Origin: Clostridia bacterium
GTDB taxonomy: Bacteria; Bacillota; Clostridia; Oscillospirales; Acutalibacteraceae
NCBI GenBank assembly: GCA_017517665.1
Contig: JAFWYP010000001.1
Location: forward strand, 62,001 to 126,000
DNA length: 64,000 bases
Reading direction: 5' to 3'
The position numbers and the translations under genes are program-made. Position 1 is the stretch's first letter; each line of letters starts with the position of its first letter. Below, one piece after another: positions 7,772 through 12,790 of the stretch. The notes beneath the pieces were generated by a model, which was given only the letters and a program-made list of their open reading frames with translations, ran no database searches and was not told where the DNA came from.

Positions 7772-7799
7772 TTGACATTGAAAAATTATTTGCTATAAT
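7772..7799 (+). promoter_or_regulatory. Promoter of the aspS-gatC operon
   Basis: A perfect TTGACA (7772-7777), a 16-base spacer ending in an extended -10 TGC, then a perfect TATAAT (7794-7799). It is one of the strongest promoters in the window. Confidence 0.85.
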
Positions 7800-7804
7800 A
7801 TCAT

Positions 7805-8012
7805 GTGAAGCCCCGTCTTTTGTGGAAAGTTTAAAAGAGATAGCGCATCATGGGCTGAAAGTGCGCTTTAAATGAGTAGTAAGAACGGCAACACTTCCTC
7901 GTATAAAAACAAAATACAAAGAGCGGATATCTTTTTGATATCAATACGGGTGGCACCGCGGGTAAATTATTGACTCGTCCCGAGAATTGTAATGATTCTC
8001 GGGGCGTTTTTT
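7805..8012 (+). promoter_or_regulatory. T-box riboswitch leader of the aspS/gatC-gatA-gatB operon
   Basis: The T-box core GGGTGGCACCGCGGG (7948-7962) is followed by a strong terminator whose arms start CGTCCCGAGAAT (7976) and end ATTCTCGGGGCG (8006), then six Ts. Upstream, GCGCA/TGCGC closes a distal stem I hairpin and AGTAGTAAGAACGGC (7876-7889) resembles the 3' side of the specifier loop. That stretch contains AAC (7884-7886, Asn) overlapping GAA (7883-7885, Glu); no clear GAC is seen there. Uncharged tRNA would stabilise the antiterminator and switch on the operon. The T-box is certain; the specifier is inferred. Confidence 0.92.
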
Positions 8013-8064: not shown

Positions 8065-10173
8065 ATGTACAGAACTCATCGTTGCAACGAAATAAGAGAA
8101 TCGCATATCGGTCAGACTGTTCAGCTTGCGGGCTGGGTAGATGTTATCCGTGACCACGGCGGCGTTCTCTTCGTTGACTTGCGTGACGAAACAGGCGTGA
8201 CACAGGTTGTTGTTCACGACGAAAATCTTGTTAAAGGTATCAGCAAAGAAACCGTTATTTCCGTTTCGGGCGAAGTAACAAAGCGTGACGAAAATACCGT
8301 TAACCCCAAAATCGAAACAGGTCTTGTTGAGCTTGTTGTTGATACTCTTGAGGTTCTCGGCGTCTGCAGCAGAGATTTGCCCTTTGAAATCGGTTCAAAC
8401 GACACAAACGAGAACATCCGTCTTAAGCACAGATTCCTCGATTTGAGAAATTCCGACCTTCATAATAATATCATTCTCCGTTCAAAGGTTATAGGTCATA
8501 TGCGTCGTCTTATGGAGGAGAGGGGATTTCTTGATATTCAGACCCCCATTCTCACCGCATCTTCACCCGAGGGCGCAAGAGACTTCCTTGTTCCCAGCCG
8601 TAAACATCCCGGAAAGTTTTACGCTCTTCCCCAGGCGCCTCAGCAGTTCAAACAGCTTCTCATGGTGTCGGGATTCGATAAATACTATCAGATTGCACCC
8701 TGCTTCAGAGATGAAGATGCCCGTGCTGACCGTTCACCCGGTGAATTCTATCAGCTCGACTTTGAAATGGCTTTTTCCACTCAGGAGGAGGTTCTCAAGG
8801 TATGCGAAGATGTTGTAAGTGACGTATTCCGCACTTTCTCGGATAAGAAAATCACGGAAACACCGTTCAGATGTATTCCTTACAGAGAGGCTATGGCGAA
8901 ATACGGTTCGGATAAGCCTGACCTTCGCAATCCTCTTGTTATATGCGACCTTACCGACCTCTTCAAGAGAGTAAAGTTCAAGCCTTTCATGAACAAACCC
9001 GTAAGAGGTATTGTTGCACCCTGCAAGAACGAAAGATGGTTCTTTGATAAGTCCCTTAATTTCGCAACAAAGCAGGCAAAGATGGCAGGTCTTGCACATA
9101 TCACTCTTCTCAATGCTGAAACCTATGAGTTCAAGGATGATCCCATCGTTAAGGTTCTCACAGAAGAAGAAAAGAGAGAGATTGTTGAGCTTACAGGCGT
9201 TAAGGAAGGCGAAACAATCTTCTTTATCTGTGACACAATTTCAGATGTTGCCGATAAGAATGCTGGCGTTATCCGTACATGGCTCGGTAATGAACTTGAG
9301 CTTATCAACAAAGATTCGTTTGAATTCTGCTTCGTTGTTGACTTCCCCATGTATGAGCGTGATGAAACAACGGATAAGATTATATTCACTCACAACCCGT
9401 TCTCAATGCCTCAGGGCGGTCTCAAGGCTCTTGAAACAATGGAACCCACCGAGATTCTTGCATATCAGTATGACCTTGTATGTAACGGTATCGAGCTTGC
9501 TTCGGGTGCTGTAAGAAACCACAGCCCCGAAATTATGAGAAAAGCTTTTGAAATCGCAGGCTACAGCGAGGACGAGGTTGAAAAGAGATTCAGCGCACTT
9601 TATAATGCATTCCAGTTCGGTGCACCTCCCCATGCGGGCATGGCACCCGGTGTTGACAGAATTGTAATGCTTCTTGCAGATACGGAAACCATCAGAGACG
9701 TTATCGCATTCCCGCTTGACGGTACTGCTCAGGACCAGATGCTCGGCGCACCCGGCGAAGTAACAGAACTTCAGCTTTACGAAGCAAACGTAAGCATCAG
9801 AGGCAAGGGAAGTGTTGAAACTCTCGGTTCAGAGGGCGGAGATCCGTCAGCATTCGCTTCAACCGTTAAATCCTCAAAGTCAGGCGTTGTTTCAACAAAG
9901 TCAAAGCTCGACAGCCTTGAATCCGTCAACGAAATCGCTTTCACAGCCGATGAAAAGAAGGCTATGGAAAAGATTTTCGGCGATATGAAGAAGAGCGAAG
10001 ATGCTCTCGAAAAGCTTGATACAGAAAATGTTGAAGCCATGATTTATGTTATGCCTATGACCAATGTTCTCCGTGACGACAAACGAGAACAGCCGTTTGA
10101 GCGCAAGGACCTTCTTGCAGGTGCTCCGCAGAGCACGGAAGACAGCTGGCAGGTTCCCAGACTTGTAAAGTGA
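8065..10173 (+). CDS. aspS-gatC: Aspartyl-tRNA synthetase fused to amidotransferase subunit GatC
   Basis: 702 residues, about 110 longer than usual bacterial AspRS. Residues 1-582 contain the OB-fold anticodon domain, the class II core (FRDEDARADRSPGEFYQLDF as motif 2, GMAPGVDRIVMLL as motif 3) and the bacterial GAD insert. DHGG with His31 matches non-discriminating AspRS, which also charges tRNA-Asn. A Ser/Lys-rich linker (about 583-619) leads to residues 620-702, which align along their length with GatC: LEKLDTENVEAM, MTNVLRDDK, LLAGAP and a VPRLVK end. No stop separates the parts and no free gatC is present. A good ribosome binding site (CGGAGGTAAGGA) precedes ATG 8065. Confidence 0.93.
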   Translation: MYRTHRCNEIRESHIGQTVQLAGWVDVIRDHGGVLFVDLRDETGVTQVVVHDENLVKGISKETVISVSGEVTKRDENTVNPKIETGLVELVVDTLEVLGVCSRDLPFEIGSNDTNENIRLKHRFLDLRNSDLHNNIILRSKVIGHMRRLMEERGFLDIQTPILTASSPEGARDFLVPSRKHPGKFYALPQAPQQFKQLLMVSGFDKYYQIAPCFRDEDARADRSPGEFYQLDFEMAFSTQEEVLKVCEDVVSDVFRTFSDKKITETPFRCIPYREAMAKYGSDKPDLRNPLVICDLTDLFKRVKFKPFMNKPVRGIVAPCKNERWFFDKSLNFATKQAKMAGLAHITLLNAETYEFKDDPIVKVLTEEEKREIVELTGVKEGETIFFICDTISDVADKNAGVIRTWLGNELELINKDSFEFCFVVDFPMYERDETTDKIIFTHNPFSMPQGGLKALETMEPTEILAYQYDLVCNGIELASGAVRNHSPEIMRKAFEIAGYSEDEVEKRFSALYNAFQFGAPPHAGMAPGVDRIVMLLADTETIRDVIAFPLDGTAQDQMLGAPGEVTELQLYEANVSIRGKGSVETLGSEGGDPSAFASTVKSSKSGVVSTKSKLDSLESVNEIAFTADEKKAMEKIFGDMKKSEDALEKLDTENVEAMIYVMPMTNVLRDDKREQPFERKDLLAGAPQSTEDSWQVPRLVK

Positions 10174-10183
10174 GGTGCTGAAA

Positions 10184-11374
10184 GTGAGTTATTATATTAA
10201 TGAAATAAATAAAGCGGGAAAAATCGCAGTTGACGATACAATTCTTGTTAAAGATGTTCCTGCAACCGCAGGTTCAAAAATGCTTGAGAATTTCAAGCCT
10301 CTTTTCAGCGCAGAAGCAGTTGAAAGACTTGAAAAAGCAGGCTATGAAATTTCGGGTAAAACAAATGTTGGCGAATTCGGACTTGACCTTCTCGGCGAAT
10401 TCTCAAACTTCGGTGCGGTAACCGAAAACGGCAATCTTGCAGGTGCAGCCGCAGCTCTTGTTGCAAAGGGTGAAATCAAGGCTGCTCTCAATGTTGACCT
10501 TAACGGAGCACCCCGTCGCGCAGCTGCAATTTCGGGTGTTGACTTCATAAAGCCTACCTACGGCACGGTTTCACGCTACGGTATAATCGCTTGCGCCTGC
10601 TCGGGTGAGCAAATTGGTGTTACAGCTGCAAATGCCGAAGACATGAAAGAAATTCTTTCCGTTATCGCTGGTCATGACGATAAAGACGGCACAAGCCTTC
10701 CCGCAGAAAAATATGAGTATACACTCGATGAAGATGTTTCGGCAATGAAAATCTGTATCGTTAAAGAGCTTTATGAATCAGCAAGTGCTGAAGTAAAAGC
10801 AAACATCGACGTTTATGCAAAGAAGCTTGAAGCTCTCGGTGCAAAGGTTGAAACCGTTTCTCTCAATATTGTTTCCGATGTTCAGACTGCATGGCAGATT
10901 CTTATGAGTGCCGAAACAACAAACAATCTTTCGAGATTTGACGGCGTTAAATACGGCTACAGAACTCCCGAATATAAGAATATTGACGAGCTTTATGCCA
11001 AGAGCAGAAGCGAAAGCATGAATTTCCTCACAAAGGCAACAATCATCTACGGTTCGGATGTTCTTTCAAAGGGCAGATACGAAAACTGCTATGACAAGGC
11101 ACTCCGTATCAGAAGAATTGCTTGTGACAAGGTAAGAGAAATCCTTGCTTCATATGATGCAATTCTTGCACCCGCCTGCGGAAAAACAAGCTATCAGGCT
11201 TATGATATCCTTGAAGCATTCGGCAAGGTTTTTGAAGAAAGCCTTTACACCGCAATTCCGAGCATCACAGGTATGCCCGCAGTTGTAACAAAGGGCGTTC
11301 AGCTTATCGCCGATTCATATAAAGAGAGCGTGCTTCTGAGCATCGCTCATACCGTTGAAGGAATGGAGGCATAA
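10184..11374 (+). CDS. gatA-like: GatA homologue lacking the amidase Ser-cisSer residues (pseudo-amidase)
   Basis: 396 residues against about 485 for normal GatA. It aligns throughout (ENFKP, GKTNVGEF, GVDFIKPTYGTVSRYG, SRFDGVKYGYRT, AHTVEG). The catalytic Lys is kept (LVKD, Lys23), but the GGSSGGS loop reads NGNLAGAAAAL (about 82-92) and DTGGSIRQPA reads DLNGAPRRAA (105-114), putting Ala109 where the acyl-forming Ser should be. The N-terminal helices and C-terminal loops are also shortened. GatA normally hydrolyses Gln and channels ammonia to GatB; this copy should not. The frame is intact, so it is not a pseudogene. GTG 10184 is preferred, with GAGGTG overlapping the aspS stop. Confidence 0.88.
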   Translation: MSYYINEINKAGKIAVDDTILVKDVPATAGSKMLENFKPLFSAEAVERLEKAGYEISGKTNVGEFGLDLLGEFSNFGAVTENGNLAGAAAALVAKGEIKAALNVDLNGAPRRAAAISGVDFIKPTYGTVSRYGIIACACSGEQIGVTAANAEDMKEILSVIAGHDDKDGTSLPAEKYEYTLDEDVSAMKICIVKELYESASAEVKANIDVYAKKLEALGAKVETVSLNIVSDVQTAWQILMSAETTNNLSRFDGVKYGYRTPEYKNIDELYAKSRSESMNFLTKATIIYGSDVLSKGRYENCYDKALRIRRIACDKVREILASYDAILAPACGKTSYQAYDILEAFGKVFEESLYTAIPSITGMPAVVTKGVQLIADSYKESVLLSIAHTVEGMEA

Positions 11375-11377
11375 AAG

Positions 11378-12790
11378 ATGAAATACGAACTTGTTATCGG
11401 TCTTGAAACTCATGTTGAGCTTTCAACAGACTCAAAGCTTTTCTGCTCCTGCGGCGGTCATTCAAGCCCCAAAGAGCCCAATGACTGCGTATGCCCTGCA
11501 TGCAGCGGTATGCCCGGTATGCTTCCCGTGACCAATAAGCATGCAATCGAGCTTGCAGTTAAAGCAGGTTTCATGCTCAACTGCAAAATCAATCAGTATA
11601 CAACTTTTGATAAAAAGAGCTATTATTATCCCGATCTTCCCTGCGCTTATCAGATAACACAGTGGTTCCATCCCGTTTGTGTTGAAGGCAGTGTTGATAT
11701 CAACGGCAGACAGATCGGAATCAAGCAGATTCACGTTGAAGAAGACGCGGGTAAGCTTGTTCACGATGAAGCAACAAACACTTCATTTGTTGACTACAAC
11801 CGCACAAGCGTTCCTCTTATTGAAATCGTAAGCAAGCCCGACTTCCGTTCATCCGACGAAGTTATCGCTTATCTTAAGAAGCTCAAATCAAGCCTTCAGT
11901 TTGCGGGTATTTCCGAATGCGAAGAAGGCGCAATGAGATGCGACGTCAATATTTCAGTCCGTCCCGAGGGTTCAAACGAACTCGGTGTACGTTCCGAAAT
12001 CAAGAATATGAGTTCACTTTCCGAAATCAAGGATGCAATTGAATTTGAGAAGGTTCGCCACGTTGATGCGATTGAACGCCACACGGAAATGCTCGTTCAG
12101 GAAACACGCCGCTGGGATGATGTCAAGAGACGCACCTTCCCAATGAGAAACAAGGAAACTGCGGCTGATTACCGTTATTTCCCTGACCCCAACCTCATGC
12201 CCATCATTATTGATGATGAGTGGCTTGAAAAAATCAGAGCAAGCATGCCTGCAACCTCAGAAGAAAAGACAAAGTATTATGAGGAAATGGGCATCGCAAC
12301 CAAGGAAGCATCCGTTCTTTCATCCGACAGAAAGCTCTCCGATACTTTTGATAAGGTTGTTGCAATGGGCAGAAGCCCCAAGACAGTTGCAAGCTGGATT
12401 CTTACCGAATGCATGGGTCAGATGAAACGTCTTGAGCTTGATTCTCTTGAAATCAGCCCCGAAAAGCTTGCAAGAATCATCGAGCTTGCAGAAAGCGGTG
12501 AAATCACCCGTGCGGCAGGCAAGAAGATTCTTTCCGCAGTATTTGAAAATGACGTTGATGTTGATAAATTCTGTGAAGAAAATGCGCTCAACGCAAAGGT
12601 TGACGAGTCCTTTATTTCCGATACCGTAGACCGTGTTATCGCTGCAAATGATAAGGCAGTTGCAGACTACAAGAGTGGCAAGACCAAGGCTGCGCAGGCA
12701 CTCTTCGGAAGTGTTATGAAGGAACTCAAGGGTACGGGCGACCCCGCAGTTATCAGAACTCTTCTTGAAGAAAAACTCAAGAGCCTTTAA
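11378..12790 (+). CDS. gatB: Aspartyl/glutamyl-tRNA amidotransferase subunit B
   Basis: 470 residues, full length. GatB activates the side chain of mischarged Asp- or Glu-tRNA with ATP and transfers ammonia to it. Seen: GLETHVEL at the start, the Cys-rich metal site (CSCGG and CVCPACSG), the cradle motifs YYYPDLPCAYQITQ, HVEEDAGKLVHD and DYRYFPDPNLMP, and the C-terminal YqeY-like tail domain that grips the tRNA elbow. Nothing appears degraded, in contrast to GatA. It starts 3 bases after the GatA stop. Confidence 0.96.
   Translation: MKYELVIGLETHVELSTDSKLFCSCGGHSSPKEPNDCVCPACSGMPGMLPVTNKHAIELAVKAGFMLNCKINQYTTFDKKSYYYPDLPCAYQITQWFHPVCVEGSVDINGRQIGIKQIHVEEDAGKLVHDEATNTSFVDYNRTSVPLIEIVSKPDFRSSDEVIAYLKKLKSSLQFAGISECEEGAMRCDVNISVRPEGSNELGVRSEIKNMSSLSEIKDAIEFEKVRHVDAIERHTEMLVQETRRWDDVKRRTFPMRNKETAADYRYFPDPNLMPIIIDDEWLEKIRASMPATSEEKTKYYEEMGIATKEASVLSSDRKLSDTFDKVVAMGRSPKTVASWILTECMGQMKRLELDSLEISPEKLARIIELAESGEITRAAGKKILSAVFENDVDVDKFCEENALNAKVDESFISDTVDRVIAANDKAVADYKSGKTKAAQALFGSVMKELKGTGDPAVIRTLLEEKLKSL

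Follow-up and report, generated by a model that had tools for sequence, protein, structure and literature searches.

In the textbook picture of the tRNA-dependent amidotransferase GatCAB, a glutaminase and a transamidase are coupled through an ammonia tunnel. The DNA analysed here, a stretch of 64,000 nucleotides from contig JAFWYP010000001.1 of a Clostridia bacterium (called the window below, at its whole length), contains an operon of this kind, in which an aspartyl-tRNA synthetase (AspRS) with a C-terminal GatC part, a GatA homologue and GatB are encoded one after the other. The GatA homologue, designated GatA* in the following, is, as judged by alignment, without all three amidase residues, namely the catalytic lysine, the cis-serine and the nucleophilic serine. 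Described complexes of the same type are those of the structures 2df4, 3h0l and 3al0, which we take to be the GatCAB of S. aureus, A. aeolicus and T. maritima. Like them, the operon combines GatB and GatC with a protein similar to GatA (over residues 17–371), in the same gene neighbourhood; unlike them, it has lost the lysine of GatA, the cis-serine with its loop, the N-terminal segment and a lysine of GatB, and GatC is joined to AspRS in 39 of 47 loci of this type, being a separate gene in the other eight.

Several other known systems invite comparison. AsnA, a different protein that works independently of tRNA, has the same outcome as the one proposed here, that is, asparagine from aspartate, ATP and ammonia, and AsnA was not found in the same genomes as the operon. 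The bifunctional AspRS-GatC family of NCBIfam (PRK12820) has the same domain order, but the window protein scored 444 bits against a cut-off of 1379 and therefore stands outside this family. In Clostridium acetobutylicum, a transamidation operon with an extra AspRS and GatCAB is accompanied by a T-box that senses Asn and Glu (PMC4206432, PMC4052509). Likened by description only, from the excerpts of these papers, it shares with the present operon the extra AspRS and GatCAB, a T-box for tRNA(Asn) and the purpose of providing asparagine and Asn-tRNA(Asn); its riboswitch, however, reads Asn as well as Glu codons, and the excerpts say nothing of a GatA with a dead amidase site. Deinococcus, Thermus and Bdellovibrio likewise possess AsnRS, GlnRS, a tRNA(Asn)-charging AspRS and GatCAB, B. 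bacteriovorus is without AsnA and AsnB, and AsnRS was noted in all prokaryotes that have AsnA; the excerpt of the same paper (PMC4206432) mentions no loss of the GatA active site in these genera and gives the extra AspRS of Deinococcus-Thermus as archaeal-type. In that work the aspS-gatCAB genes of B. bacteriovorus were put to the test in JF448, an asparagine-auxotrophic E. coli strain, in the presence and absence of Asn. Among titles and abstract openings in open PubMed Central, neither a GatA with a dead amidase site nor a naturally ammonia-dependent GatCAB was found to be described.

We consider it probable (roughly 0.6) that the operon encodes a tRNA-dependent, asparagine-forming amidotransferase which would use free ammonia, with GatA* as its scaffold, and which would replace AsnA. 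This is based on the state of the amidase site, on its conservation in relatives, on matching changes in GatB, on the T-box and AspRS of the operon and on the distribution of asnA.

An earlier note on this DNA had described GGSSGGS as replaced by NGNLAGA and DTGGSIRQPA by DLNGAPRRAA, and both replacements are seen in our alignment (from residues 85 and 108 of GatA*, respectively). The gene indeed lies, with an intact frame of 399 amino acids, between the AspRS-GatC fusion and a full GatB, and it falls short of the canonical open frames compared (485–532 amino acids) by about 90 residues, as had been said; much of the deficit falls on the N-terminal segment before the lysine and on the cis-serine loop. 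The statement that the catalytic lysine remains was wrong, a later lysine having been mistaken for it: canonical IAVKDN aligns without a gap to IAVDDT, so that the catalytic lysine corresponds to Asp20. The place of the nucleophile had to be moved from Ala109 to Ala112. The cis-serine, which was chosen among the loop serines by the S130–S154 spacing given for yeast in the excerpt of PMC4027206, corresponds to a leucine in a shortened loop. From residue 17 to about 371 GatA* aligns with solved GatA chains (best 3h0l_A, E 2.4e-60), and its best NCBIfam model is TIGR00132 with 262.6 bits, under the curated cut-off of 481.1. Automatic annotation may well call such proteins GatA and predict a glutamine-dependent pathway. 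No other GatA-like gene was found in the window's own genome (88.7% complete) in a search up to E 1.

In one scan of genome contigs, relatives of GatA* turned up at 50 loci (loci are cited as L and genomes as G with a number), the best segments being 55–95% identical. Their titles mark all of them as Clostridia or Firmicutes from uncultured or metagenomic material, and in 33 of the 50 the title points to a site in the gut of deer, goat, cattle, buffalo, sheep or yak. AspRS, GatC and GatA* are consecutive in 47 loci, the contig ending before AspRS in the remaining three (L068, L072 and L077), and GatB comes after GatA* everywhere but in L079, whose contig ends first. Conservation of the substitutions in relatives, which had been proposed as a check, was found in an alignment of 58 dead rows (window included) and 11 canonical rows: the lysine column holds Asp in 57 dead rows and Glu in one, the cis-serine column Leu in 54 and Ile in four, so that both residues are gone in 58 of 58. 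As far as the aligned sequences tell, lysine and cis-serine are lost family-wide and the place of the nucleophile drifts. The canonical rows agree fully in 116 columns; at least 90% of the dead rows retain the residue in 50 of these, and fewer than 10% do so in 40. In addition, at 18 positions, several of them at the former active site, 97% or more of the dead set share a residue that differs from the canonical majority; the newly fixed residues include Asp20 (98%) and Asn110, Arg115 and Glu145 (100% each).

The ratio of non-synonymous to synonymous substitution rates (dN/dS), another check proposed earlier, was 0.050–0.152 for GatA* (13 pairs), 0.010–0.073 for GatB (12 pairs) and 0.023–0.073 for AspRS (13 pairs), with GatA* exceeding GatB in all 12 pairs that have both. 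By this measure the GatA* protein is maintained by purifying selection, and pseudogene decay of the whole family, which we had considered, is rejected on the grounds of dN/dS and conservation. The same changes recur in 50 loci, which together with the low dN/dS speaks against chance or sequencing error. The earlier idea of a maintained, catalytically dead scaffold thus agrees with the loss of residues, the purifying selection, the newly fixed residues and the conserved operon, all read from sequence, and has to give up only the lysine said to remain.

The loss of GatA features is graded. In L127, with the same operon layout, GatA is canonical and has 485 amino acids, and in L125, L126 and L165 it has 444–447 amino acids and has kept the nucleophilic serine, while lysine and cis-serine loop are gone; intact serines in relatives, which would have spoken against the earlier note, therefore exist in this outer group for the nucleophile only. 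L120 (401 amino acids) and L121 (cut by the contig end) have dead, divergent forms. In L115, L116 and L117, further deletions have left 302–323 amino acids, and GatB is retained beside all three; L116 is without the DLNG segment, and much of the former active-site region is gone in L115–L118. In L118, which belongs to G061, GatC is fused to a strongly decayed dead GatA and the fetched stretch has no GatB; the sole GatB match of G061 lies on another contig, beside a GatA of canonical length. A GatB tree unites 26 rows from amidase-defective operons in one group (support 100/99) with 12 canonical GatB outside, and a single amidase loss followed by erosion fits this grouping. The GatA tree places the window type together with L120 and L121 (100/99), whereas the intermediates join canonical GatA and the shortest forms sit on long branches, so that this tree alone does not prove a single loss; the AspRS tree intermixes the shortest forms, the intermediates and the canonical operons. 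On balance we lean, by a modest margin over even odds, towards a GatCAB that turned free-ammonia-dependent through amidase loss and a matching GatB change, with GatA as scaffold, with stepwise decay of GatA in one lineage (about 485, 445, 400 and 300 residues) and with AsnA displaced in many uncultured gut and rumen Clostridia.

GatB has been altered along with GatA, which is concluded from two columns. A lysine that is invariant in 30 of 30 clean canonical sequences is kept in none of 54 dead-operon GatB (Cys 38, Ala 11, other 5), and at the column of Asp272 52 of the 54 have Asn. In the window the lysine is replaced by Cys89, which aligns with Lys88 of S. aureus GatB (2df4_B), and the intermediates L125 and L126 already have Cys. 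Lys88 and Glu125 are presumed to form the gate of the ammonia tunnel; the literature search and the excerpt of PMC4027206 gave no confirmation of this. Otherwise 84 of the 94 canonically conserved columns persist in 90% or more of the dead-operon sequences, and all 54 retain the kinase residues (Glu and His in GLETHVE, Glu in EED); window GatB scores above the NCBIfam cut-offs. GatB of L108, L125 and L126, which comes from defective operons, was kept out of the canonical set of 30. The description of GatB as intact was nevertheless dropped, given the lost lysine and the ten columns not kept.

The AspRS encoded by the operon matches NCBIfam PRK00476 with 746 bits, and its GatC part (residues 612–701) matches Pfam GatC and passes TIGR00135 with 48 bits (cut-off 47.1). 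RDHGG was found in 51 of 51 dead operons, with the same His signature as in 4wj3, and the second AspRS, a stand-alone enzyme, shows R(D/N)LG in all seven cases, as in 1eqr. We take 4wj3 to be the non-discriminating AspRS of P. aeruginosa and 1eqr the AspRS of E. coli, and presume that the His/Leu position of the signature governs tRNA discrimination. All 51 operon enzymes have kept FRDED, and 49 of them show the motif 3 pattern. As a further difference, the QAPQ of operon-type AspRS (51 of 51, that of the window included) stands against QSPQ in the second AspRS (seven of seven).

The leader of the window operon contains a T-box sequence, an AAC (Asn) specifier and a terminator hairpin. Related leaders exceed the gathering score of Rfam RF00230 (L164 126.6, L120 113.9, L067 99.9 and L121 94.9), and the specifier was read as AAC in L164, L120 and L067. 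AAC is invariant in an alignment of 30 window-type leaders, many of which share the -10 region, and is present in 51 of 51 by a fixed-pattern check; the T-box sequence was seen in 48 of the 51 within the stretch taken. Among these 51, L039 and L159 are the same locus counted twice, and some of the others are closely related. Within 420 bases upstream, no T-box sequence was seen in L123, L125, L126, L127, L130, L131 and L165, nor in L115 and L116. Near asnA of three non-carriers no T-box scored over the gathering score, a weak result because the window's own leader fails it as well. According to the excerpt of a survey from 2008, no T-boxes lie upstream of amidotransferase genes (PMC2494555). 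In L075 a tRNA-Asn gene with a U1-A72 pair lies directly upstream of the T-box leader, so that tRNA substrate, sensor and enzymes stand in one row; bacterial GatCAB is reported, in the excerpt of PMC4206432, to recognise the U1-A72 pair of tRNA(Asn). The acceptor pair is known from two genes only, in L075 and in L039/L159, and no tRNA-Asn was found in about 305 kb of G184.

The distribution of asnA was followed in two samples, one of 99 genomes with the window's own included, the other of 150 family genomes drawn at a completeness of at least 90%, the own genome excepted. GatA residues were inspected in all carriers, and for most of the other genomes the class was assigned from identity and length. 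In the first sample, asnA was found in none of the 21 genomes that carry the window type or a close variant of it, and in 18 of them neither asnA nor asnB was found; if the proposal is true, it would explain their asparagine supply. In the same sample asnA was found in none of four genomes with the most decayed forms, none of two intermediates and 37 of 44 genomes without GatA. In the second sample it was found in none of 13 carriers, none of three intermediates and 44 of 51 genomes without GatA, so that no asnA was found in the 31 distinct carriers of both samples. Within the window's own genus, asnA was found in 0 of 15 carriers and in 25 of 30 non-carriers (Fisher 4.5e-8, without correction for relatedness); four of the five non-carriers without asnA have asnB, and the fifth is 63% complete. 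Five genera hold both states, with the operon but no asnA found in one species and asnA but no GatA found in another (g1: G000, G022, G030; g15: G199, G099; g85: G225, G135; g94: G144, G231; g95: G232, G145). Among genomes of the second sample that bear AsnRS, asnA was present in 0 of 8 carriers vs 18 of 44 with canonical GatA (p 0.04, relatedness not controlled). The carriers G044, G144 and G184 (95–97% complete) showed neither AsnRS nor canonical GatA; in G184 the single class IIb synthetase seen is AspRS-GatC, and no other route to Asn-tRNA was found. The window's own genome contains GlnRS. Two candidates were set aside during this analysis: G220, a seeming counter-example with asnA and a GatA fragment of 48% identity, has a canonical GatA with GGSSGGS and DTGGS that is cut by the contig end, and G149, seemingly free of AsnRS, has a truncated AsnRS at a contig end. 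As part of the whole explanation, the dead-GatA operon appears to replace AsnA.

Three features indicate asparagine formation on tRNA: the Asn T-box, the AspRS signature of the non-discriminating type and the mutual exclusion with asnA. Free ammonia is suggested by the apparent replacement of AsnA, itself ammonia-dependent. Under this proposal, a non-discriminating AspRS would charge tRNA(Asn) with Asp and, being tethered, hand the misacylated tRNA on inside the complex. GatB would phosphorylate the Asp side chain with ATP and then amidate it to Asn-tRNA(Asn), and hence provide asparagine. As GatA* can no longer hydrolyse glutamine, the ammonia would be drawn from the cytosol. GatA* would be a structural subunit that unites GatB and GatC and tethers AspRS through the GatC fusion, and the T-box would let uncharged tRNA(Asn) induce the operon. 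AsnA would in this way be replaced, in species many of which come from the ruminant gut, where ammonia is plentiful. In all this we infer the tRNA specificity, the transamidase activity, the free-ammonia donor and the scaffold role. A reason to keep GatA* as scaffold and to tether AspRS may be seen in yeast GatFAB, where, in the excerpt of PMC4027206, ammonium chloride bypasses the glutaminase and GatC is said to encircle the GatA-GatB interface. If the proposal holds, a natural, maintained complex without glutaminase would show that the coupling is dispensable, and would offer a clean system for the non-hydrolytic role of GatA.

A number of observations weigh against this reading. The nucleophile column of the 58 dead rows holds Ala in 43, Ser in nine, Thr in three, Tyr in two and Phe in one, for which reason loss of the nucleophilic serine was dropped as a family-wide trait; the nine rows with Ser go some way towards the relatives with intact serines named earlier as a refutation, but they are without lysine and cis-serine. 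RDHGG also occurs in six of seven AspRS of canonical or intermediate operons (the set held two intermediates) and so marks the indirect pathway rather than a dead GatA. The asnB gene is present in three of the 21 carriers of the first sample, and asnA is reduced as well in genomes with canonical GatCAB only (15 of 28 and 18 of 83 in the two samples), so that its exclusion is partly due to the indirect pathway in general. The lost GatB lysine may mean an open tunnel, but also a weaker enzyme or a hindered passage of ammonia. The window leader reached 43.8 bits with RF00230 (E 2.2e-7), where the gathering score is 93, L115 and L116 are among the loci in which no T-box sequence was seen before the operon, and the tRNA-Asn gene of L039/L159 (G044), about 2.7 kb upstream at the contig end, has a G1-C72 pair. 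The source records are, moreover, mostly metagenome bins, as a sequencing or assembly error would have it; the earlier note had named such an error as a refutation, and its chance is practically negligible, the same residues being shared by independent assemblies from many samples.

A last observation of this kind is a divergent asparaginase-family gene beside the operon in 12 of the 50 loci, also in G071 and G144, which was the most recurrent neighbour in flank clustering. Its product might be a source of ammonia, like GatD in archaea, or just keep asparagine in balance. In archaeal GatDE, a GatB-type kinase is combined with an amidase other than GatA; by analogy, an asparaginase-family amidase of the GatD superfamily could hydrolyse Gln or Asn and feed GatB, with GatA* as docking subunit. 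The proteins have kept GGT in 15 of 15 rows reaching it and HGTD in 16 of 16, the one tested (L075) matches Pfam PF00710, and GatD is the best NCBIfam model for two of the ten scanned. In 7 of 47 dead-operon loci the gene follows downstream of GatB at a distance of no more than 1.2 kb, vs 0 of 25 other GatB loci (p 0.09; the 25 are from L081–L110 minus L082, L083 and L108 and may include the decayed operon L105). We nevertheless think such a dedicated partner, the foremost rival source of ammonia, unlikely, since the gene is placed upstream or downstream and in either direction, and since the ten proteins reach only 54–93 bits with TIGR02153 (GatD, cut-off 324), are far below the asparaginase cut-offs too and match the GatD model from position 58 or later, beyond its N-terminal part. 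Nor was the gene found in the fetched flanks of 38 of the 50 loci, in the window itself (the rest of the own genome lying outside this search) or in 10–11 kb around the operons of G184 and G044.

The 18 newly fixed positions, several at the former active site, could mean that GatA* has gained a new catalytic or ligand site (D20, N110, R115, E145), e.g. for another amide donor or for ammonium capture. We give this little chance, as the region is largely gone in L115–L118 and DLNG is lost in L116, although GatB is kept beside L115–L117. It is still less probable that a canonical GatA, where also present, supplies the ammonia or does the reaction, with the dead operon as accessory. A second GatA, canonical by identity and length only, exists in G045, G058, G070, G115, G199, G211 and G225, and in L067 and L069 the dead-GatA operon is followed by a gatA that is canonical by its residues and by a gatB, in L067 with the asparaginase-like gene between; but neither the own genome nor the 14 other own-genus carriers of the first sample yielded another GatA, and G044, G144 and G184 additionally showed no AsnRS. 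Equally doubtful is a complex that no longer transamidates, the operon being a decaying remnant or a regulatory device. The higher dN/dS of GatA*, the shrinking forms, the lost GatB lysine and a copy of GatA* in G014 that is split over two frames would agree with it, but dN/dS is 0.010–0.073 for GatB and AspRS, the Asn T-box is kept, asnA was not found in carriers and G184 shows no other route to Asn-tRNA. A tRNA-dependent amidotransferase on free ammonia stays our preferred reading, and the features on which it is built are collected in Table 1.

Table 1. Coordinates of the operon, its control region and associated genes (window positions unless a locus is given)
Feature	Sequence	Position	Strand	Remarks
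Putative sigma-70-like promoter	window	7772-7799	+	TTGACA, 16 bases, TATAAT; sequence match
T-box riboswitch leader	window	7799-8012	+	terminator hairpin and T run to 8012
Rfam RF00230 match	window	7799-7985		
AAC (Asn) specifier	window	7890-7892	+	
T-box sequence	window	7948-7960		GGGTGGCACCGCG
AspRS with C-terminal GatC fusion	window	8065-10173	+	702 aa; non-discriminating-type RDHGG signature; PRK00476, TIGR00135, Pfam GatC
GatA* (GatA homologue without amidase Lys, cis-Ser and nucleophilic Ser)	window	10175-11374	+	399 aa, GTG start, frame intact
Codon 20, Asp replacing catalytic Lys	window	10232-10234	+	alignment (58 dead rows: Asp 57, Glu 1)
Former cis-Ser loop and nucleophile region	window	10433-10537	+	NGNLAGA...DLNGAPRRAA, Ala112 at nucleophile place; alignment
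GatB, full length	window	11378-12790	+	470 aa; TIGR00133 503.3 bits; kinase residues kept, Lys to Cys89, Asp to Asn272
GatC fused to decayed GatA	L118	1338-2573		
tRNA-Asn gene	L075	2573-2647		U1-A72
Gut-1 RNA	L054	2251-2325		RF01706, 74.2 bits
Asparaginase-like gene	L042	1436-2464		
Asparaginase-like gene	L043	1442-2464		
Asparaginase-like gene	L044	8716-9735		
Asparaginase-like gene	L054	7654-8682		
Asparaginase-like gene	L055	1451-2506		
Asparaginase-like gene	L058	7885-8973		
Asparaginase-like gene	L060	655-1719		
Asparaginase-like gene	L061	1342-2484		
Asparaginase-like gene	L067	7631-8761		
Asparaginase-like gene	L075	7625-8773		
Asparaginase-like gene	L078	268-1377		
Asparaginase-like gene	L080	7678-8706		
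Asparaginase-like gene, further copy	L158	5798-6862		
Asparaginase-like gene, further copy	L108	357-1484		

Two minor observations concern neighbouring elements. In G002 (C43), G011 (C28) and G008 (C1), an asnB-like gene lies about 0.56 kb from a second AsnRS-like gene in a cassette-like arrangement, and in L054 a Gut-1 RNA and a tRNA-Gln gene are found just upstream of the operon.

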